Shown piece by piece: positions 42,022 to 64,000 of a stretch of DNA of 64,000 bases; position 1 is the stretch's first letter, and every line of letters starts with the position of its first letter. Where the stretch lies: NCBI RefSeq assembly GCF_000264995.1, contig NW_006767439.1:1199148-1263147 (forward strand), read 5' to 3'. The notes beneath the pieces were generated by a model. It was not told the DNA's origin and did not search any database. It was given only the letters and a program-made list of their open reading frames with translations. This DNA is from Punctularia strigosozonata HHB-11173 SS5. Its lineage: Eukaryota; Basidiomycota; Agaricomycetes; Corticiales; Punctulariaceae. The translations under genes were made by a program, and so were the position numbers.

Positions 42022-43671
42022 CTACATCATATCTACCTCCGGCACTATTTCTTTGAGCGCCTCTAGATCCTCTGGTTCTATCCCCGAGCAATACACAAAC
42101 ATAACCATTCGAAAAGTCGGAGCGTCCTGTCCTAATCTGATAAGACATCGAATGGCCATCTCCGCAAGGCACGCTTCGAACCATGGTTGCAGGAGGTCAT
42201 CCTTCACGGCTCCCGATATCTTCAGCGACGCCAGATTCGGAAGCACCCAGCTGGATCGGGACGGGTCCGCTTGGGCTCTGTTAGTGGTGCGAATTGCATC
42301 CAACAACGTCATGGTAGCCTCGTCGCCGTACACGTCCAAGTGACGGAGCGAGGGCCAGTTGACGAACATCGCCCTCAGTTCCATCCTCCTCCCGAAGTCG
42401 TGCGCGAATCGTCCGGAGAGCCCGAACGTCGTCGCACCGAACCGCGGCATGCACCACTTGAGAACGCGGAAAATATCGAGCACAACAGGATCGTTAAACT
42501 CCCGCGAACCACTGAGCCCTTCGAACACGACGGACGCCCACCCGGGGTCCGGCCGAGACAGGTCGCTCCCCGCGACGGTGATTGTGTCGTTTGTCTTGTT
42601 CATGGTAATCGACAGTTCCGGCAGCTCGAAGTACGCGTCGACGAGATCCCAGAGGTCGAACGCGGCCTCCGCGGCGCGCTCCCTGGTCACGAAGCATTGC
42701 AGCCGGAGCCGCGGATAGGGATGGGAGATGGGCAGCACTGCGAGGAGACAAATGCACGCGCGGACGGTTCCCGACAGGTCGACAGTGCGCAACGAGGCTA
42801 TGCAGACGGACGCCATGGCCGTCGTGGGCTCCTCCGCCAGACAGGATGCCAAACGCAAATGTTCCAGGGACTGAAGATGTCCCAGGACGTCCAGAATCTC
42901 GGAAAGCGTAGGCCTCGTGGCAGACGATGCCTTCCAGTCGTAGTCGACGGACAGGCTGCGCAATCCAGAACACCGCAGGAGATGAGAGGTTCTCCATATC
43001 TCCGGGCTCGAGAGGTGCTTCAGCCTCACACGCAATAGGTTGGGAGCCTGAAGCTCGCGGAGCAGGGTGTCCACGTCCGCAAGTTTGATACCGCTGTGAG
43101 GTAGGATTTCGAGGTCGAGGTTGGTGAGCGCGGGGGCATGTTTCCCGAAGCTGCCCAAGGCGATGTCAAAGGTAACATCCGGACGGCACGAGAGCCGTAG
43201 GTCGACGACGCGCGAGGCACCTCCGGTCATGATTAGATCGAGAATCATCGTAGCCGGTCCCGAGGCACCTAGGGCGTTATACATAATACGCAGAGGCTGC
43301 CTCGGGAACCTTCGACTCAACGCTAGCGCTCGCTTCGGTTTTGTGAGGTCCAGGTAGGTCCACAGGGCGGGTGCATTGAGAGCAACCCGGCGCCACACGC
43401 TGCAAACCTGGGTCAAAGACGGCGACCACTGAGACTCTAGCCACGGAGGACCATCAGATTGCTCATAGTCACCGGTGACACGAGACATGGCGAAGATCTC
43501 CGCGAGAATTTCGAAGGGGAGGCGGTTCACGGGAAGGGATGCATTGTGTTCGACGCGGCGAGCGAGAGTATCGATTGACTCGAGCTCTCGCTTGCTCTTC
43601 TGAGCGGAGGCCGCATCGAGCAGACTCGTATTTACGGACGTAAGCTGGCTTGATAGAGAATTGTCCCGTGG
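42022..43671 (-). CDS. F-box protein with leucine-rich C-terminal region
   Basis: The main exon reads leftward and ends at 42022 (EIVPEVDMM*). It is open to 43671, with a coiled lead-in (SAQKSKRELESIDTLARRVE) before the F-box NRLPFEILAEIFAMSR (about 43480-43530). Then comes the conserved LTQVCSVWRRVALNAPALWTYL, followed by leucine-rich repeats such as HAPALTNLDLEILPH and LRSLSVDYDW. No ATG precedes the lead-in in this exon, so the first exon must lie further right (a TAA bounds the frame at 43672-43674). Family role: substrate adaptor of SCF ubiquitin ligases, binding Skp1 through the F-box; target unknown. It is the intact member of the local cluster. Confidence 0.78.
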   Translation of the reverse strand, partial: PRDNSLSSQLTSVNTSLLDAASAQKSKRELESIDTLARRVEHNASLPVNRLPFEILAEIFAMSRVTGDYEQSDGPPWLESQWSPSLTQVCSVWRRVALNAPALWTYLDLTKPKRALALSRRFPRQPLRIMYNALGASGPATMILDLIMTGGASRVVDLRLSCRPDVTFDIALGSFGKHAPALTNLDLEILPHSGIKLADVDTLLRELQAPNLLRVRLKHLSSPEIWRTSHLLRCSGLRSLSVDYDWKASSATRPTLSEILDVLGHLQSLEHLRLASCLAEEPTTAMASVCIASLRTVDLSGTVRACICLLAVLPISHPYPRLRLQCFVTRERAAEAAFDLWDLVDAYFELPELSITMNKTNDTITVAGSDLSRPDPGWASVVFEGLSGSREFNDPVVLDIFRVLKWCMPRFGATTFGLSGRFAHDFGRRMELRAMFVNWPSLRHLDVYGDEATMTLLDAIRTTNRAQADPSRSSWVLPNLASLKISGAVKDDLLQPWFEACLAEMAIRCLIRLGQDAPTFRMVMFVYCSGIEPEDLEALKEIVPEVDMM

Positions 43672-46170: not shown

Positions 46171-48063
46171 TCAGTAGTATACCTCCTGCACTTCCGGAAC
46201 AACCTTCCTCAAGGCTGTTAGCGCCCTTGCAGGAATGCCTACACAATCCGTGAGCGTCAGCGTCCGGAAGGCCCGTTCTTCTTCCGTCAACTTGATCGCC
46301 GCCGCGCGAGGGCCGCATCGCATCCTTAGCTCGCCACTGCAAACCTCAAACCACCCGTCGCGCTTGCTGCTGTACTCGGATTCGTAGATTTCGAGCACCA
46401 TCAGGTTGGGAACGATCCACTTGGACCGGTCGAGTGGCTCGTTCTTGCGCTGTCGGCTTGGAGGCGCTTCGGTGCGGATCGCGTTCACCAGCCATGTGGT
46501 GGCATCATCGCCGTGCAGCTCCAAATGCTTGATCGTGCGCCAGCGTGAAAGCATCTCCCGCAGGTCGATTTGATCCATGTGCTTGAACCCAGGCGTCTTT
46601 AATGCGAAACTATGGGCCGGCATCCGCGGAAACAGGGGTATCACTTGGCGAAGGGCGTTGAGTTGGTCGTTCGGCCTGGAACGGAAGTCGCTGATAAAGT
46701 CCACGCGCAATGGATCGATCCCATAATGGAGCAGACCTATAAAGAAGACGTGGGTGCTTCATTGTATATCCATGATCAACCTGGGCAACTGGCAAGACGG
46801 CTCAATCAGCCGCCACAGATCACCTGCATACAAGCCGCAATCCGACTCGCAACGGAGAGTGAGCTCCTTGAACGGCTGAGATGGCACCAGATTGGACAGG
46901 AGGTCGATACACTCTGAACATGTCCCCCAAAAGACGACCTCTCGAAGAGATGGCATCGGTGTTCTGCGAACGAGCGGCGACCGCAGTTTTTCCCCTTCTT
47001 CGCGCAGTCTGTCAACGAAGACAACGACCGTTATGCCGAGGGTCTGGAGCGACTGCAGACCACCGAGTGCATTGATGATGTCTGCGAGCGAGGGTTCGAG
47101 GGGACATTGGAGTTGCAGGTGGCGCAGCTGTGAACCGCGGATGACTGGAGACTGCCAAATCTTTCCCGACATAACATCGTATAGAATGAGTTCTTGTCGT
47201 GCAGGGGTTCCGAGCTCATACAGCCCGCTAGCAACAGCGGCCTCTTCGGTTTGGACCATAAGTTCAAGGGTTTTCAGGGCGGGAGCGCGCCCAAGGAAGA
47301 GCTCCAACACCGTACGAATGAGGATTCCTTCACGGTCTGTAGCCCGCAATTCAGCAATGCGCGACCCGTGCTCCGAGACGAGCTCGCGGAAGGCAGCCTC
47401 GGACGCTGAATACCACCTGCTCGGGAACTGCTGCAGGATGCGAAGTGGAAAGTGAGGAAATCTCCGACTTAGCGCCAGTGCCAACTTGGGTTTGTCAAAT
47501 TCCAGGCAGTTCCACATTGCCGGCGTGTCCAAAGCGATGGTGCGCCAGTGGCTGCAAACTTGCGTCACAGACGGCGACCAAGATGCTTCCTGCCACCGCG
47601 GGGAGTGGCCACCGAGATACCCTGAGCGACGCGAGAGAACCAGAATCTCTGCCAGCAATTCGACCGGCAGACGGTTAATGGGCCGGGATGCGTTGTGCTC
47701 CGCGCGAAGGCGTAGGAACATTTCCCTTATCTGGGAAATTTCACGTTGTAGCTCTCGTATACGTTCACTTTCCGTGTTTGTAGAAGACGCGGCAAAGCCA
47801 TCCTCGTGGTGGAGAGAGGAAAGGACGGAGGAGCAGGTACACGGCGGTCCGTTTCGGAGTTCCTCGGCGTTACGGCATTCCCCTCGAAGCGCCAACATTT
47901 TTGTGCAAGCCCGTTCCTCTTGGTGCTGTAGTTCCACAACATTCTTCAACAGATCCTCGGGGAGAGCCCGTGCCAGGTCGTCATGCTTGACGGGGACGCA
48001 GTAGCATGCTGCGTGAATGGGGGATCTGTGCGAAGGAAACGAAGGTAAGAAGACGACGAACAA
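46171..48063 (-). pseudogene. F-box/leucine-rich gene with one premature stop
   Basis: A long frame reads leftward: a coiled segment (RIRELQREISQIREMFLRLR), the F-box NRLPVELLAEILVLSRR, the conserved TQVCSHWRTIALDTPAMW, then leucine-rich repeats. At 46759-46761 a TGA interrupts MDIQ*STHVFFIGLL. The same frame continues for another 195 codons (RTIKHLELHGDDATTWLV; TALRKVVPEVQEVYY) to the stop at 46171. Nothing else is broken, so a single C-to-T change (CGA to TGA) explains it. The 5' start is uncertain: the frame is open to 48063 without an ATG, and the first in-frame ATG is 47898. A truncated product of about 430 residues is possible. Confidence 0.75.
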
Positions 48064-55408: not shown

Positions 55409-56569
55409 AGGACCGGTGAGCGTCGGATCTCAGTCGTGCTGCGTGGGCACATGGGCTGATGGGTTGTTGCGTCTCCTAGGTCCAACGATCGCTCCGGAAC
55501 GGCCGTTATGACGGAGACGTCGTGCGGCTCGCGATCTGCAGTAGCCTCAGCCAACGCTCCGATGAGGCCTGATCCGACACTGTTCGAGACGTACACGAAC
55601 GTCGAAGGCTCTATGGGCATCGCACGCCCCCCGCTTGCAACCTCGTTTGCCCCCACTTCAAGCGCTCCGCGCATGGGTCACCCTTACTCGCATTTCACCC
55701 ACCAAAACAGGGCCTCGGATGCGAAATCGCGAGCTCCATTTGTACAAATACGCTCAGCCACACGAACAAACTACGAAGAACGACCGACCATGAACGACAT
55801 CTCGTATACCCTTCATCTCTCTCGCCCCCTCCCGCTTCCTTTTTTTTTTGCTCGTGTTGTTGCTCATTTCTTTGCTCCTGGCTACTCGTCGCTATCGATT
55901 GATCTCCTCATATTCTGTTCGTTGCTCTGTTGTTCGCGGTGATATCGCGATTTGCTGTTTCTCTCATGTTGTACGAGAATTGACTCAGGACTATAGAAAT
56001 GAAGGGGGAGGACGTGGCTGTTGTTGTTGCGATCGCTATCTCTTTGGAATGCATGTACGATATACTCATCGGAACGTACGCGTGATATGCAGCTCAATAG
56101 AAACATTCGATCAAAACATTGAGCAAGCTTAGCCGCGAGTCACCTTGAAGGGCACTCCGTTGAGATACTGATGAGGCGCGAGCGCCATGTATTGTAGGAT
56201 TCCCGGAACGCAAGGACGGAAGGTTTCCTACGATGGGCTTCGTGGGCGTCCGTCCGGGCGTCAAATAATCCATCAACGCTAGAGCCAGACATCTGCGAGC
56301 GTGGGATGAGAGGGATACCCTGGTCCTTGTCGGGTGTCGCGATGGATATACAGATGGCGCAACCATTGAAAATGCAGCACCCGATGCCCAGCTGAACGAT
56401 GAATGGGCCCTCTCCGAAAGATCGGAGAGCTCGCGTTTGCATATTCCGTAGCCGACCGAAGATGGCGGCTTAGTCGCTGCTTGACACACTAGGGGAATAA
56501 CGTGGAGCGTGTGGAAAACATCGAGACACCAAGGTCCCACGCTATCCAGGCAGAAGATAGGGGTGTATT
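55409..56569. other. Intergenic, nothing recognised
   Basis: A T-run at 55841-55849 and assorted short frames were seen; no gene. Confidence 0.45.
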
Positions 56570-56750
56570 AGTATATATTCCAAAGGCAGCTTGACGCCAC
56601 AGTGCACAGGCCTGGGATAAGCCCAGTGAACCTTCCGGACTCACCCAGTTTAAGATACCGCCATTAAACCGTGAATCAACTTGCGACAACACGAAGATCT
56701 CCTGCAGGAATTCTAATGAGAAGCGATCGATAGGCCAGTGCGCGTTGTGT
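56570..56750 (-). pseudogene. F-box domain fragment
   Basis: Minus-strand codons give NAHWPIDRFSLEFLQEIFVLSQ then LSQACALWRQAAFG, matching the order in the cluster genes (NASRPINRLPVELLAEILVLSR; TQVCSHWRTIAL). The match stops on both sides and no leucine-rich part follows. It is a remnant of the same F-box family, 8 kb from the main cluster. Confidence 0.5.
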
Positions 56751-57373
56751 CCGATACGGGAACTCAGCGACAACCCAAGAGATGCCCTTGTCAAACAGTC
56801 AGAATGGAGAAGGTAGCCGAATCCAAGCTTGGTAGCTCTTGCGTGCATTGGACATTGCTTTATGCCAGGTGGAGTGTATGCACGTGCTCGAGCGCGCGTG
56901 GGGGAACAGAGGTCGTGCAACGCCTTGCCTTGACGGCTTCGATATCAGCGATTATTTCCGATCCTTCCAAATGGACTATGCTCTAGTGCGCGTCGGGGAA
57001 CTACGTCGTCGCGAAACGTCTTGACCTGACGGCTTCGGCATCAATGACGCGAGATCGACGACGACATATCGCCGCCAAGGGCAGCTGGGGAGGTAGGTGG
57101 GCAGACGGCAACGTACATCTCGATAGCATGCTAGATGAGACCAAGGCAGCCCTTCGGCACATATACAAAAGTGAATGCTAGCGTGAGTCTTCAGGAATCC
57201 GAAGGTCTGAGCTTGGGTAGTGTTTGATGGGCTGATGTGGTGGCAGTAGATTTGTTGGGCATTCAGATGCCGTCGCGATTTGCAGTGCATGCACTGGCAT
57301 TGCTCTGATATATCTTACGTGAGTAGCTTCGGATTTTGGGTTCGGGCGCTGGTGTTGTGACATTCCATCAGCC

Positions 57374-57847: not shown

Positions 57848-58882
57848 GGTGTGACCGCCGCAATGGCCGGTACATCCACAAAGATGCGCGGTTCCACCGC
57901 CGCCGTTGCTCTTGAGGGTTGAGCAGACAGGTAGCACCAGTGATGGTGCGGGTCGGACCAGCTGCGTTGGTGCTACCTGCGGGGGACAGTCTGGTGCCAC
58001 CACTGGAGGGTTCAGCGGACGGGTAGCACCAGCGATGTTGCGGGTCTGACCAGCTGCGTTGGTGCTACCTGCGGGGGACAGTCTGGTGCAACCAAGCGAT
58101 GTGGGGCAACCATAGCATCATCCGGTCGCACCGCCGGATTGGGTACGACCAGGGCTACATTATGGTGTTACCGGCGTGTCAGCTGGGTCCTACCCCCAGT
58201 CCTAAGGAACGCCGGTAGGTCTTACCATGGCGAGCAGAATGGTGCGACCACCTGCAACCTGCGGTCGCAATGGTAACACCAATCCACCGGTAGGTCTTAC
58301 CACAACTCGGGACATGGTGCGACCACCTATCCGACAGGTAGGACCGTGCCGCAGTGTGGTCGGACCATTGGCGGCTTCTCAACTGCTGGTGGTACCATCA
58401 GTCAAAACGCGGTCGCACCAGTGCACTCCTGCCGGTGGTACCGAAGACGATGGAAGGTAAGACCTTCGGTCGCTACGATATGTCATCGTTGGTAAGACCG
58501 ACATGGTCGCATCCTGCGATGGTAACACCAAACTTCACCGGGTAGCGGGCGAGGTTCGCCAGTCCGGACCGGGCATCCGCAGTGGATACAACTATGCGTT
58601 GGGACATATGAAGAAGGCCGTCGGAACGATCCTGGTGTATTTGGGACCGAATGGTCCGACCGAACTTACGAGTGGTACGACCTGGGAAACCACTGGGGGA
58701 AAACGCGAGGTGTACCCCGAAGCTTCACAAGGATACCATGCCTTGACCGGGGACAGATATTCCTCAGACAAGCGCATGGTGCAGACCATACAAACGTGCG
58801 GGCTGTGCTCTGGAAATTATTCGGATGGCGCGCACACATTTCTGGAGAAAAGTGAGTGATTTTGCAAAACCGGATGGTAACA
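57848..58882. repeat. Array of 30 GGTNNNACC gapped palindromes
   Basis: By direct reading, 30 exact GGTNNNACC sites start at 57848, 57890, 57930, 57951, 57969, 57993, 58022, 58043, 58061, 58085, 58124, 58142, 58164, 58186, 58218, 58241, 58272, 58293, 58316, 58337, 58358, 58388, 58411, 58434, 58456, 58491, 58521, 58653, 58674 and 58874. Random sequence of this length would hold about 0.25. The three middle bases vary widely (AGC, CGG, GCT, GTT, CTT, AAG, AAC and others). Distances between neighbours are mostly 18-24, with others near 30 and 40. No frame is coding. The array lies just beyond the 3' end of the KDZ transposase gene, so it may be its subterminal binding region; this is inference. 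Confidence 0.9.
57914..58097. repeat. 92-base tandem duplication within the array
   Basis: Bases 57914-58005 and 58006-58097 are two copies of a 92-base unit with about ten differences. Each copy has four GGTNNNACC sites at matching offsets. In two of the four pairs the spacer changed (CGG to CTG; GCC to GCA) while all GGT and ACC half-sites stayed the same. Confidence 0.85.
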
Positions 58883-59117
58883 CCGGGCTGGTTTATCCAC
58901 GGGCCGCGGCGGTCACTCCAAGAAAATGCGGGTACGTATGATCAACCATTGATATTGGGGCATATTAGGTGTAACTCGTGAGTGGGGAGGTTACACTTAA
59001 TAATGTCATGTCTTGGGGGTGACCAAGGTGAGTGCTTGTCGAGGAGTACCTGGTCGCCGTTTATCGCGGACGCGCGACCATCGGTCTGCAAGTCGCGTGA
59101 AGCAGGGATGTTTGTCA

Positions 59118-62100
59118 TTAAAGGCAAACGCTACTGAAGACATCACCGCTAACACGAGATTCCATGGCCACGGAAGATGCTGACGTGCGGGAAGCGAACA
59201 CGGCCTTAGGCTTGAACAAACGTCTCTGAACCCGTTCCTCGACCTCTGAAGGATACGGTGAATGCAACGGCGATTGAAGGATTGCTAAGTCGTGCTGGTA
59301 CCCTCTCGGCGTCGACGGTCCCGCTGACGATTGTGACCATTCCGATTGTCGCCCCGGCGAGTCCATACTGAGCTGCGGGGTGGGTGCTACGTCCGCCTGC
59401 CATAGTCCGTCCGATCTTTCTTCGACGTTGACGCGAAGGGCCTCCAGTTGTTCATAAAGCGCAGCGACGTCTTCGCCGCAGTTCGACTCGTCGTCGAGCT
59501 CCCTCGCGTGATCTTCGAGGTCACTGTCTTGGTTGTCGTCACCGCTATTCCTCCGCGCTTCACTTTCACTTCGGCTCCAGATATCCAGGCGACTGTCCGA
59601 TGCTGGCGTGTCACTGGTGACCTTGGGAGGATGGACCATGACGTTGCGTAATGATTCCATACGCATTTCGCTTTCGCTCGGTCCCCACACGTCCAGGAGG
59701 GTATCGTTTGTCGGAATAGCGGAGACAAAACCCTTCCAGGTGATGGCTAGCTCGAGAAGTTCCTTGCGGTAGAGGAATATCTGGTTATGTAGGCCGGTGG
59801 ATATATCTAGGGCTAGTGTCGGCATCGTACACATAACCGACACTGAGATACTCACCCGTCCTGTCCAGCGCGTGCTCGACTGCCTTCCACTCCTCCTGCA
59901 GCCAGATCTGCATATGCCTCCGCTCTGCCATGATCCTCGCGAGTTCCTCTTGACATCTATCCGCGCTCAGCATGTGGCGGATACCTTCCTTGACCTTGGC
60001 ATCGGTTAACCAGCGCGGCGGTGCGCAATCACCATCCTCTTCGTCGACGAGGCCGACATCCTGCCAAATGTTGTCGTCGACGTCGAGACCCCATAGCTTC
60101 TCCATGTCAATCGGGGTAGGTGGGACGGCTCGAGTTGGCGCTTGTCGATTTTCTACGAGATTCGCCATTTCGGTACATAACGCATTATATTTGCGAGTAA
60201 GAGATTGGATCGTGGGTTCGCGTCGATGTACAGCGTTTGTTGTGTGCGCTGTCAATTTCCGATCTGCGGCCAGCCGTTATAGCAAGTTCAATTGTTCAAT
60301 GAGTAGGACAATTACCCACCAGATGACTGGGTATGAAACGATCGCTCCATCTTTGAAAGCTCGAATTTGCGTCGAATCAAAAGCTCTCTGATCCGTGTCT
60401 TCAACGTGAGGGCATTGATACGGGCAGTTAAATACCGACTCCCGCGTAGGCTTCGGAGGTTCTGCCTGCTTCGGAGATCCAGGCTATCCTCCAGACGGGC
60501 CCGCTTCACTAACACACGACCGCGTTCGTTCAACAATTCTTCACGTCGCGAGTTCGCGTCCGCATCGACACGACCTTTACAGATTGCGCGTTCGATTTTT
60601 GCGACGTGAGCGTCGATCATTGCTTGCTGATCTTGTAATGCGAGTATCGAGTCGATAGTCTTTGCCCCCGCGTCCTTCACCTGGTCTATATCCAAGGGTC
60701 AATTAACCGAAGCTGTGAACAGCTGGAAACGTACTTCGGAGGGGCTTTGTCTGCGCAGTCTGTTGCAGAGTCCATTGATCCCGCAAGAAATCCACGGCCA
60801 GGTTACATTTGCGGAGGCCATTCTGAGCCTCCATAGCTCGCTGGCGACAGGCTTCGTACTTCCGTAGAAGCCGTTCACCTGCTGAACGAAGGTGGAGGCG
60901 ATCGAGATGGTGCAATTGGAGGTTGATGACATAGAACCGTTGATAGTACTGTTCAGGCTCGCATGTTAGTAATGGTTGTTTAGTGCTGTGATTGTGGTAC
61001 TCACGCCGCTCACGCGCAACCCAGGAACGAGGTGTTCCAGCGCGCTCCAGACACGCTCGCACCCTTCCCCGTCACTAAGACCGAAGCATTCGCATTTCCG
61101 CGGGTGGTAAATGACCTGGCATGCCCATTGATGGCCATATGCATGAAAAACGGAAATGCCGAACACAATGCGATCACGGTAGTTTTCAAGTAGTCCCCAT
61201 TTGAAGCAGCTCCGGTGTAGTTGGCACCCTATGTCGTACAGGACGCCAGCGCGAAAGGTCTTCGGTACGTGATGGAAAAACTTATCGAGGAGTGCAATGG
61301 CATAATGCTGGCGTTCGCCAGCACTCGTTATGTTGGCCATCCATAGGACACGATCATGACGGCAGACGAGTGCCATGAGCCCAGTATCATCGAAGAAATT
61401 TGTACTTGCCTTCTCTCGTTGTTCGTCCGCGGCTTTGAACGATGACTCGCAGCCGTCCAGAACAGAGTTCGGTAGCTTCAAGGGACCTTCGCATTTGTCT
61501 TCGGCTCCGTCATTTCCGGATGTAAGCGTCGCGTCGGGTTGCTCTCCTCGTTTCGGTGCAGACTGGGAAGCGCCATGCTTCCTCGATCCTTTCCGAGCCG
61601 TTCTCCCCTGCCTTTTCTCCTCGACAATGCGTTCCATGGCTGTAATCTCGTCTTCTCGCAGGAATACGGACGCCGGATGGTGCCGCTCGGGGTCACGGCG
61701 GCCGCTTGCACGTCGCTTTTGGGTAAAGCAAGCGTCCAAGCAAATAATCGAGTCTACACTGTAAGCAGAGAGGTCAGTTACACCTGCTGGTTGCACTATG
61801 GAAGGATGCGCACCCCAGCTCCTCCGTCTCTCGCCCAGTGCCACCAAAGCACAGTACGCAGCGCGACCGCAAGTACGCGCTCGGACGGTTGCCACGCGGT
61901 ATATTCCGGTCAGCAAGCTGGCCCTCGCGTTCTTCTTTGTCATAACAACGGCCGCCGGGTAGGTCAGATTGAGAGCGTGGTCCATTATGATGTGGTTCCT
62001 CCGTGATCCTAGGCTGCGATGAACGCAAGACGTCATAGGGAGCTGCTAGAGATCGAATGGCATCTCTGCCGTGATCAGAACCGTCAGTCGCGCCGGGTTA

Positions 62101-63477
62101 CAACAACGGATTGATGCTCACCCCAACCCCTCTGTCTGATGTCCGGTCCCCCCGAAGCATGGTATGGAGCTTGATTGCGACTCGGCGCTCAGGGGATTGT
62201 CCTTCGAGCACTTGCGGTCAGGGACCAGACCATCGCAATCTTTGTCGTCGCGGCGACAAGCGCTAGGCCGCTCAGGTGTGGAGCGTGATTGATCAAGACG
62301 CAGATCTTCAGTGTTCCCGGCCTGCATTGGGTGAGATGCTGTGGGTGAGGCTGGTAGATTTGGTAAAACTTATGCGGAGAACACGTAAGGATAATGACTT
62401 ACTCTGGCATCCGTTCAGTGCTTCTTCCTCTTGCTGTTGTAAGAGAATGTGCCTCGACAGTTCCACGGCACTGGATGTACACGTTCGGACGTGATCGATT
62501 AGGTAGTTGTACCAGTTCAACGCGTTCCCGAACCGCCTCCGCAGTGAATTCTGCTCTCCGGATCGTTATCACACCATTTGCCATGAAAAATATGTTTTCC
62601 TCACCCGCGTGGTCAGTTTGTAGTTCCGTACACTCAGGAAAGATTCCAATGTGGTTGCCCATGCGGTGACGTTGGGTGCGGTGTTTACGAAAAGGGTAGC
62701 TACTAATTCGAGCATGTTCAAATCGAAGGCCACCGATGGTGCTTGAGGCGCGCACGGGAAGAGACCGCGAGCAAGTAGAGCTCTGGCCGCAGACGTGGGC
62801 GTACATACGGGAATGTCCATCTGCTCAAGTCCTGCTGGCAGTTCATTCGCGCGACTTAACGACGTCATGAAAGACTACGCACGATCTATAAACACGACTA
62901 GCACGTTCAGCGTTTTGTGGTGATCGCCGCATTGACATGTTGGCAGGAGAGGGCGATTCGTGGTCATATGGTCAGTGGCCCTCACGTACTCCATGTATGG
63001 CTCAACCAGCTCCGGTATGGTGACACTTTGCCATCGCTGCCATTGATTCGCCTTCTTTCTCGCGTATCTCTCCTTCTCCAGAGCTGATATATCACGATCA
63101 TCCTGGGCCGGGAAGTGCAAAGGTGATGCAAAACGTTCTGGCCGCGGGGTACAGAAAGGAGATGACGCGGTAAATGGGTCTGACTCTGGAGCGGCCTCGG
63201 GTTCCTTAGCACTTCCTCCGTCGATCGGCTCCCTCCCCTTATCCTCGAGGTCAAAATCCTCGTAGAGGAATCTAGCATATCGTTTGTTGAAGAGACCCGT
63301 TTGAACGAGTTTATTTTCGCCAGGAAGGTGAGCAACCACGGATTGCGCCTCCGAATCCGACTTGAACTTGCGTCCTCTGCCTAGTGTACGTCGTACGTGC
63401 GAGATGTTCGATGAGACCACACCTTGACTCGGTACGCCTTCATCAGAGCGCAGGAAGCTGCGTGGCAATTTGACCAT
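59118..63477 (-). CDS. KDZ family transposase with N-terminal CxC1-like cysteine cluster
   Basis: ATG at 63477 (MVKLPRSFLRSDEG); reading leftward over about ten exons to the stop at 59118-59120. In order: CxC1-like segment (QWQRWQSVTIPELVEPYMEY, CQCG, KTLNVLVVFIDR); ARGLLARGLFPCAPQ-type block, APNVTAWATTLESFL; NSLRRRFGNALNWYNYLID; SAYLRSRCVLCFGGTG; IICLDACFTQKR; NFFDDTGLMALVCRHDRVLW; AGVLYDIGCQLHRSCFKWG; GISVFHAYGHQWACQVIYHP; LSDGEGCERVWSALEHLVPG; coiled region; REPTIQSLTRKYN, IWQDVGL, ADRCQEELARIMAERRHMQIW. The order is that of Kyakuja-Dileera-Zisupton transposases known from basidiomycetes. The acidic residues in LDACF, YDIGCQ and EGCER probably form the catalytic site (inference). It looks mostly intact apart from a duplicated exon remnant near 62200. 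Confidence 0.82.
61540..61770 (-). other. Hydrophilic insert within the KDZ catalytic region
   Basis: Right after CLDACFTQKR the frame continues through a basic, low-complexity linker (EEKRQGRTARKGSRKHGASQ) before NFFDDTGL. Such variable linkers between the first acidic residue and the next block are common in this family; noted as domain detail of the transposase. Confidence 0.45.
62118..62300 (-). repeat. Decayed duplicate of the transposase CFGG exon
   Basis: The minus strand gives PCFGGTGHQTEGLG here and LCFGGTGRETEELG in the working-looking exon at about 61800-61990. The upstream halves (ACRRDDKDCDGLVPDRK against RCYDKEEREGQLADRN) also match. The 62.2-kb copy lacks the YLRSRC part in a good frame, so it is probably skipped or breaks the gene. 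Confidence 0.6.
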
Positions 63478-63720
63478 GGTGGCGAGGAGGGTGAGAATGG
63501 ATGTCCGAGAGACGTGAACGAAACCCGCATCGATTATTGTTGATCGGGTAAATCAACATATTCCGACTCCCCCGAAGGAGGGAGTTGGTTTTTGCGCATG
63601 GGCCTCGTCACAGTGACAGAAATGTGACCCCAGCCAAAACGTGACAAAAGCGTGATAAAGTGTGCGCGTCAACGACACTCTACCATCTATCCTTAAGCGT
63701 CCCACTTCTTCCATGTACTC

Positions 63721-64000
63721 ACTACATATCAGCAATCTACGCAATTTAGTGATGTGGTGCCCCGGCTCTGCACGCGTACGCGCGTGGCCTTTCGCTACTC
63801 AACGCCGGTGGCTGTGCAGCGACCTCGCGCCTACCTCGGCGGTCTCGACGGCCCTTCACTCCTTCGGCTTCCTGAATCGCCCTCTAGCATCCAACTACAT
63901 ATCAGCAATCTACGCAATTTAGTGATGTGGTGCCCCGGCTCTGCACGCGTACGCGCGTGGCCTTTCGCTACTCAACGCCGGTGGCTGTGCAGCGACCTCG
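63721..64000. repeat. 173-base tandem repeat running off the right edge
   Basis: Bases 63721-63827 recur without a single difference at 63894-64000 (107 of 107), giving a period of 173. The unit starts ACTACATATCAGCAATCTAC and includes CACGCGTACGCGCGTGG. The window ends inside the second copy, so the array size is unknown. Identity implies recent expansion or active homogenisation. Confidence 0.9.

Follow-up and report, generated by a model that had tools for sequence, protein, structure and literature searches.

The window analysed here (64 kb; C7:1199148-1263147 of the 33.6-Mb genome of Punctularia strigosozonata HHB-11173 SS5) contains a dense array of short dyads at 57848-58884, a transposon terminus at 59015-59030 and the open reading frame (ORF) pieces of a KDZ transposase gene on the minus strand (59118-63552), the stop of the last ORF lying about 88 bp from the terminus. 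The KDZ domain (PF18758) was located at 60963-61751 on the minus strand (C7:1260110-1260898) with 211.8 bits, the top score in the genome. Within the ORF at 60969-62042 it reached 209.1 bits against a cut-off of 26.6, and PF18758 had matches in none of 14 control genomes. A CxC1 cysteine-cluster domain (PF18802) was found at 62626-62826, also on the minus strand (C7:1261773-1261973), with 28.2 bits, above its cut-off; an earlier reading of this DNA from its letters alone (the sequence-only reading) had guessed at such a cysteine domain in the adjoining KDZ gene. With a predicted KDZ domain and N-terminal CxC cluster, the gene is assigned to the KDZ superfamily. It is also complete at its C-terminal end, where its ORF aligns with the C9 paralogue to residue 279 of 281. 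Upstream of the gene, a 107-bp perfect direct repeat (63721-63827 and 63894-64000) reaches the assembly gap.

The array comprised 30 exact copies of GGTNNNACC (GGTN3ACC), a motif without strand. All thirty gapped palindromes reported by the sequence-only reading were recovered, with the end of the final site corrected from 58882 to 58884. A T preceded 15 of the 30 sites and an A followed 16, while both were present (TGGTN3ACCA) in eight. When GGT and ACC were set apart by 0 to 12 bases, only a spacer of three was enriched (30 copies, every other length giving three or fewer), and the three spacer bases were nearly free, with T first in one site and A last in one, in agreement with the proposed free spacer and fixed half-sites. 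The GG-N5-CC core common to the N5 forms described below occurred 33 times in the array, spacers of 2-4 and 6-8 giving at most 11. Based on genome-wide counts (5505 sites in 33.57 Mb, gaps counted), 0.17 copies of GGTN3ACC were expected per 1037 bases, and the array was about 175 times as dense as the genome mean. The strong excess that had been claimed therefore stood, while the expectation of 0.25 given with it was replaced. The full window held 39 copies against 13.15 +/- 3.48 in 100 shuffles. Across 40 kb surrounding the array, nearly half of it N, 37 copies were counted against three of the reversed word CCANNNTGG, which is the more frequent of the two genome-wide (7489 against 5505). Tandem Repeats Finder detected a single tandem repeat in the array, a 92-bp duplication in two copies that are 91% identical (57911-58002 and 58003-58094, plus strand) and supply some of the 30 sites. 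A similarity search of the array against phage records gave no match.

The terminus reads CACCTTGGTCACCCCC on the minus strand (GGGGGTGACCAAGGTG on the plus strand). A complete 27-kb KDZ element (C9:202600-229741) has exactly this sequence at each of its two ends, and it was also found at C7:1282995, referred to as end B. The outer part of the window end, or end A (58399-59030, plus strand), was 99.8% identical over 633 bp to C7:1282363-1282995 at end B, in the same orientation. A candidate 7-bp target-site duplication, AGTGCTT (reverse complement AAGCACT), was located at 59031-59037 on the plus strand; AAGCACT abuts end A and sits 2 bp outside end B. Because the terminus is identical to both ends of the C9 element and relatives carry equivalent arrays, the array is assigned to the end of a KDZ-type DNA transposon with its terminus at 59030. 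The suggested link to the KDZ transposase next door was borne out, both here and by other KDZ elements, except that the array would be the end of a KDZ element and not a separate element beside one. A separate non-KDZ element was rejected on the strength of the terminus shared with C9 and of the relatives.

To the left of the array, ORFs were present at 54-57.8 kb, including 56492-56944, which has paralogues at 43375-43569, at 47530-47715 and at about C7:1292.1 kb, beyond end B. The paralogous ORF at 47 kb had a weak F-box-like match that fell below the cut-off. This distribution suggests that the DNA left of the array belongs to one host gene cluster spanning both flanks of the KDZ locus. The presence of paralogous ORFs on both flanks led to rejection of this sequence as element interior.

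CACCTNRGYCACC was matched 49 times over both strands and its reversed control 33 times. Taken by itself this pattern is weak, and proof of the element structure rests on terminus pairs. Inverted CACCT...AGGTG termini with perfect 7-bp target duplications were paired in seven relatives, namely C9 (CCTTTAC), C6 (TGGACTT), C8 (CGATCAT), C23 (ATGGATG), C8:188504-207597 (CCTTAGG), C15 (TCCATGG) and C2 (326288-348485, ACTGCGC), the last pair being located via its array. The paired elements were 16.3 to 27.1 kb long. A further terminus pair on C13, in which the ends differed in sequence and lacked a duplication, was excluded from the count. Two elements, C8:188504-207597 and C15:420450-436726, had near-identical ends and perfect target duplications with no listed KDZ-domain match. 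An assembly gap begins 454 and 485 bp, respectively, past their left termini, and these elements are either non-autonomous or have their KDZ genes hidden by the gaps.

Inverted ends matched over 81 bp in C2b, 421 bp in C9 and 588 bp in C6, in the latter two up to a gap, and over 1411-1532 bp in C4; in the remaining relatives the comparison of ends covered about 30 bp. The two ends of C9, C6 and C4 were near-identical, and their two arrays were therefore treated as copies and counted once. The ends of C2b matched only in the outer 81 bp, with nothing longer than 23 bp aligning further inward, and TGGN5CCA occurred 12 times in the left end and 13 times in the right at differing positions. Similarly, the C7 and C9 ends aligned only over the outer 70 bp or so, yet the sites were common to both. 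Since C2b has unrelated ends with a common dyad and the C7 and C9 ends cannot be aligned beyond about 70 bp, these comparisons show that selection has acted on the sites and not on the linkers. They also bear on whether the arrays are ordinary minisatellite DNA that happens to lie in transposon ends and has no binding role. In keeping with that explanation, the window array holds the 92-bp duplication and C2b a 39-bp repeat (1.9 copies), and minisatellites were seen in other parts of KDZ elements and next to a KDZ gene. The explanation is nevertheless highly improbable given that just one two-copy repeat was detected in the window array, that half-sites stay constant while linkers vary, that the unrelated C2b ends have the same dyad and that the core recurs in divergent lineages. 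A satellite was likewise rejected on the single two-copy repeat and the C2b ends.

Complete elements have the terminus at the outside and the array inward of it. The window shows another arrangement, with the terminus turned toward the KDZ gene and the far side of the array bordering the DNA that resembles a host gene cluster. End B lies 24 kb to the right of end A in direct orientation, and the window element itself shows no inverted repeat. Both ends of C4 (1098523 and 1119458) were also everted; they share 99.9% identity, and the target duplication, GCGTCTT, adjoins each of them on the side of the KDZ gene. The end at the C9 contig end (C9:1677335) was likewise everted, giving three KDZ loci with everted ends. 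Between the everted C4 ends, three TGGTAAGTACCA dyads were observed in 30-bp repeats (C4:1108020-1108091). The window end looks flipped, and the positions of AAGCACT would fit a single insertion with an inverted left end block. A nested insertion or an assembly error is a possible cause, the latter being thinkable because assembly gaps coincide with array positions and a 19-kb gap follows directly after the window. This 19.2-kb run of N (C7:1263148-1282362) begins at the first base past the window, and the gaps in C9, C6, C8, C23, C8:188504 and C15 open about 420-790 bp inward of the termini, at places where an array is present or expected. The array is identified by its terminus and motif, whatever its orientation.

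The genome contained 48 KDZ-domain matches, certain loci yielding several pieces. Protein comparison of fifteen KDZ loci, made without a tree, placed ten of them in one group with 50-78% identity. A dyad array was found at eight of the ten, comprising the window (C7), C9, C6, C8, C4, C2b, C28 and the C9 contig end. There was no array at C23 in the 651 bp visible before a gap or at C2a in the 1784 bp visible beside one. Five relatives (C9, C6, C2b, C8 and C4) had an array at each end, and a promoter-only array was rejected for this reason. Two flanks were inspected in a second KDZ class, of which C5:1909676 had only a 25-bp minisatellite downstream and C5:1472149 had no dyad excess downstream.

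The dyad differed in form between the lineages of the group. Nine of the ten C9 sites were TGGTN3ACCA and C2b carried TGGAN3TCCA at both ends, while C6, the C9 contig end and, with fewer sites, C28 had TGG-N5-CCA with A/T-rich inner bases. The C8 and C4 arrays consisted of TGGKA-NN-TMCCA with a spacer of six. The window was set apart from the other lineages in that the outer T and A were joined in only eight of its 30 sites. GGTN3ACC is a single lineage's version of a wider dyad, which elsewhere takes the form GG-N5-CC or TGG-N5/6-CCA. The nearest transposases had a common form, as seen for C7 and C9 (78% identity), C8 and C4 (76%) and C6 and C28 (71%).

Eleven end regions, including both ends of C2b, were compared with 200 dinucleotide shuffles per region and with 40 windows of 1.4 kb taken from the 64-kb window. 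The top dyad was GGTN3ACC or TGGN5/6CCA in nine of the eleven, with 6-30 copies, and the two exceptions were the short C23 and C8:188504 ends. TGGN5/6CCA did not exceed five copies in any of the 200 shuffles per region, and no dyad exceeded seven. The six copies in C28, the weakest case, lie within that any-dyad maximum, while TGGN5CCA reached at most three in the C28 shuffles. Maxima in the 40 control windows were two for TGGN5CCA, one for TGGN6CCA and two for GGTN3ACC, so that these windows do not share the density of the array. Other dyads reached up to 12 copies in these windows, the top three all being words of G and C only.

Genome-wide, 22 triples of GGTN3ACC were found against none for the reversed control, and 21 of these were at KDZ ends (17 in the window array and four in C9); one on C13 was away from the listed KDZ matches. 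For this genome, clusters of the motif do lie with KDZ elements, an association that the sequence-only reading had put forward for a genome scan. Triples of TGGN5CCA numbered 29 against one in the control, and 28 of them were located at a KDZ end or next to a KDZ gene; by locus they fell in C2b (12), C9 (7), C6 (4), C7 (3), the C9 contig end (1), C28 (1) and a C3 tandem repeat (1). Pairs of TGGN6CCA were less clean (99 against 49), with either end of C8 and of C4 among the matches listed. Four GGTN4ACC triples were found against none in the control, one within the C4 locus and three elsewhere. Small triples of GGTN4ACC or GGTN3ACC off the listed KDZ matches were noted at C8:851385-851475, C9:88853-88940, C13:771813-771900 and C13:242557-242601.

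A dyad of GGT/ACC or TGG/CCA with a fixed spacer resembles the sites of dimeric zinc-cluster factors. A host protein, either a Zn2Cys6-type regulator or a silencing factor, might on this likeness bind the arrays and give them an enhancer, silencer or insulator role. We consider this improbable as a single factor leaves unexplained why lineages in one genome differ in inner bases and spacer (five versus six), the arrays are at both ends and not on the promoter side alone, and such triples are almost lacking elsewhere in the genome. The Zn2Cys6 factor named in the sequence-only reading found no counterpart, as no such Pfam domain was detected in nine window ORFs, in a rescan of four of these plus an overlapping ORF with a lax cut-off, or in nine ORFs of the complete C9 element.

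The distances between neighbouring sites in the window (n=29) fell at 18-24 bp in 18 cases, 27-32 bp in five and 37-42 bp in three, with the rest at 35, 132 and 202 bp, so that 26 of the 29 were in the three classes described earlier as 18-24, about 30 and about 40 bases. Phasing was tested on neighbour distances below 60 bp against a geometric null and a jitter of +/-5. At a period of 10.5 bp the window gave R=0.47 over 27 distances (p=0.034 for the geometric null and 0.002 for jitter), and R=0.54 when the second 92-bp copy was omitted (p=0.0125 and 0.001). Thirty-four distances pooled from six other arrays gave R 0.54, with none of 20000 jitters as high. The same was true of 46 gaps from eight other arrays, in which the C2b left end and the C9 end were added (R 0.47, 0/20000). 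The proposed placement of sites on one helix face is consequently upheld as phasing in the window and the pooled arrays, but not in every detail; the C2b left array by itself was unphased (R 0.31, p 0.43) and the best period for the window alone was 9.7-9.9 bp. The six arrays pooled with the non-duplicated gaps of the window (57 distances) peaked at 10.3 bp.

Taken together, the array probably acts in cis as the end of a Kyakuja-like cut-and-paste transposon of the KDZ type. Its dyads would be read by a dimeric protein that the element itself encodes, the CxC1-KDZ transposase being the most likely candidate. The transposase is favoured as the reader because arrays are present at both ends and their form tracks the transposase lineage. 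In line with the sequence-only reading, the dyad with fixed half-sites points to a symmetric dimer and the phased spacing to cooperative binding on one face. In this mechanism the 1-1.5 kb inward of the terminus would be packed with dimer sites, and each dyad would be bound by one dimer via the N-terminal cysteine cluster. The phased sites would allow cooperative loading of dimers on one helix face, and many sites jointly could give end specificity and help join ends 16-27 kb apart. Weighing against this reading are the direct orientation of end B, the small share of window sites with both outer T and A, the unphased C2b left array, the lack of an array in the visible stretches of C23 and C2a, and its absence from the two flanks inspected in the second KDZ class.

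A second element-encoded protein could instead bind the dyads, in the way that TnpA of En/Spm coats subterminal motifs and also regulates its element. The 27-kb C9 element would have room for one, with several long open frames lacking a Pfam match. Against a second protein, the eight ORFs without CxC1 among its nine scanned ORFs gave no Pfam match at E<=0.01 and the motif form tracks the KDZ protein groups; we regard it as unlikely. A CxC1 protein from this strain, P0001, aligned over its full length with the CxC1 gene in the C9 element (97% identity, 39% of the query), and the alignment has a gap resembling an intron. Structure prediction for the C9 CxC1 region from 27 sequences had a mean pLDDT of 55, too poor for a fold search, and a profile search of the same alignment against PDB sequences gave nothing at E<=1.

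Extending the transposase reading, KDZ elements may recognise their ends through a dyad code that evolves. CxC1 would be a new dimeric zinc module with a constant half-site centred on GG/CC, and flanks, inner bases and spacer (five or six) would be lineage-specific. About 10-30 phased dimers would form a nucleoprotein spool that joins ends 16-27 kb apart and blocks cross-mobilisation of co-resident families. We offer this scheme tentatively, and hold it to be somewhat more doubtful than likely. With several co-resident lineages, each matched by its motif form, this one genome offers a natural experiment in specificity. If arrays replace a strong single site, this could explain the mobility of very large elements (16-27 kb). 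The dyad also provides a simple means of locating KDZ ends in genome assemblies, in which they are often hit by gaps.

KDZ transposons have been reported from mushrooms, rusts and yeasts. In the text available for Kyakuja of the KDZ superfamily (Kojima 2025, PMC12730594), 5'-CA..TG-3' ends and 7-bp target duplications are described. The elements here are set beside Kyakuja by their KDZ transposase, CA..TG ends (CACCT..AGGTG) and 7-bp duplications in the relatives and C4. Kyakuja-1_LB and Kyakuja-2_LB were reported without terminal inverted repeats (TIRs), unlike the inverted ends found here, which extend from 81 bp in C2b to 1.4-1.5 kb in C4 and are followed by or filled with dyads; that account, in its available portion, makes no mention of a dyad array. 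The target duplications also differ from the 8 bp given for Zisupton in the same source. Cryptococcus KDZ1-KDZ3 share CxC1 and KDZ domains and TIRs (here in the relatives) and have been shown to be mobile, but are 9-11 kb long with TIRs of 139-241 bp and duplications of 8 bp (KDZ1) or 4-8 bp, compared with 16-27 kb and 7 bp here (PMC12810828). In the accessible part of that text the word stem 'subterminal' is absent and 'palindrom' occurs once. More generally, the accessible parts of the KDZ papers found described neither subterminal or dyad arrays nor end recognition by the transposase nor the role of CxC.

Long ends with several sites are also found in Galileo, a Drosophila element of the P superfamily, in which a 1.2-kb TIR has three sites for the N-terminal zinc domain (THAP) of the transposase (PMC3688188). 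Its authors proposed that many short sites supply specificity. The Galileo transposase is unrelated and has three sites, and the portion of that paper available describes no phased array and does not contain 'palindrom'. Repetition of transposase sites within transposon ends is already known, and hAT (Hermes, Kat1, Ac/Ds) and CACTA (En/Spm) elements are described, in the sources as far as available, with short repeated transposase-binding motifs within their ends. The subterminal motifs of hAT and CACTA elements are known as short individual sites, arranged either directly or inverted. Unlike the single sites of these other superfamilies, the unit repeated in the KDZ ends described here is a dyad with a fixed spacer.
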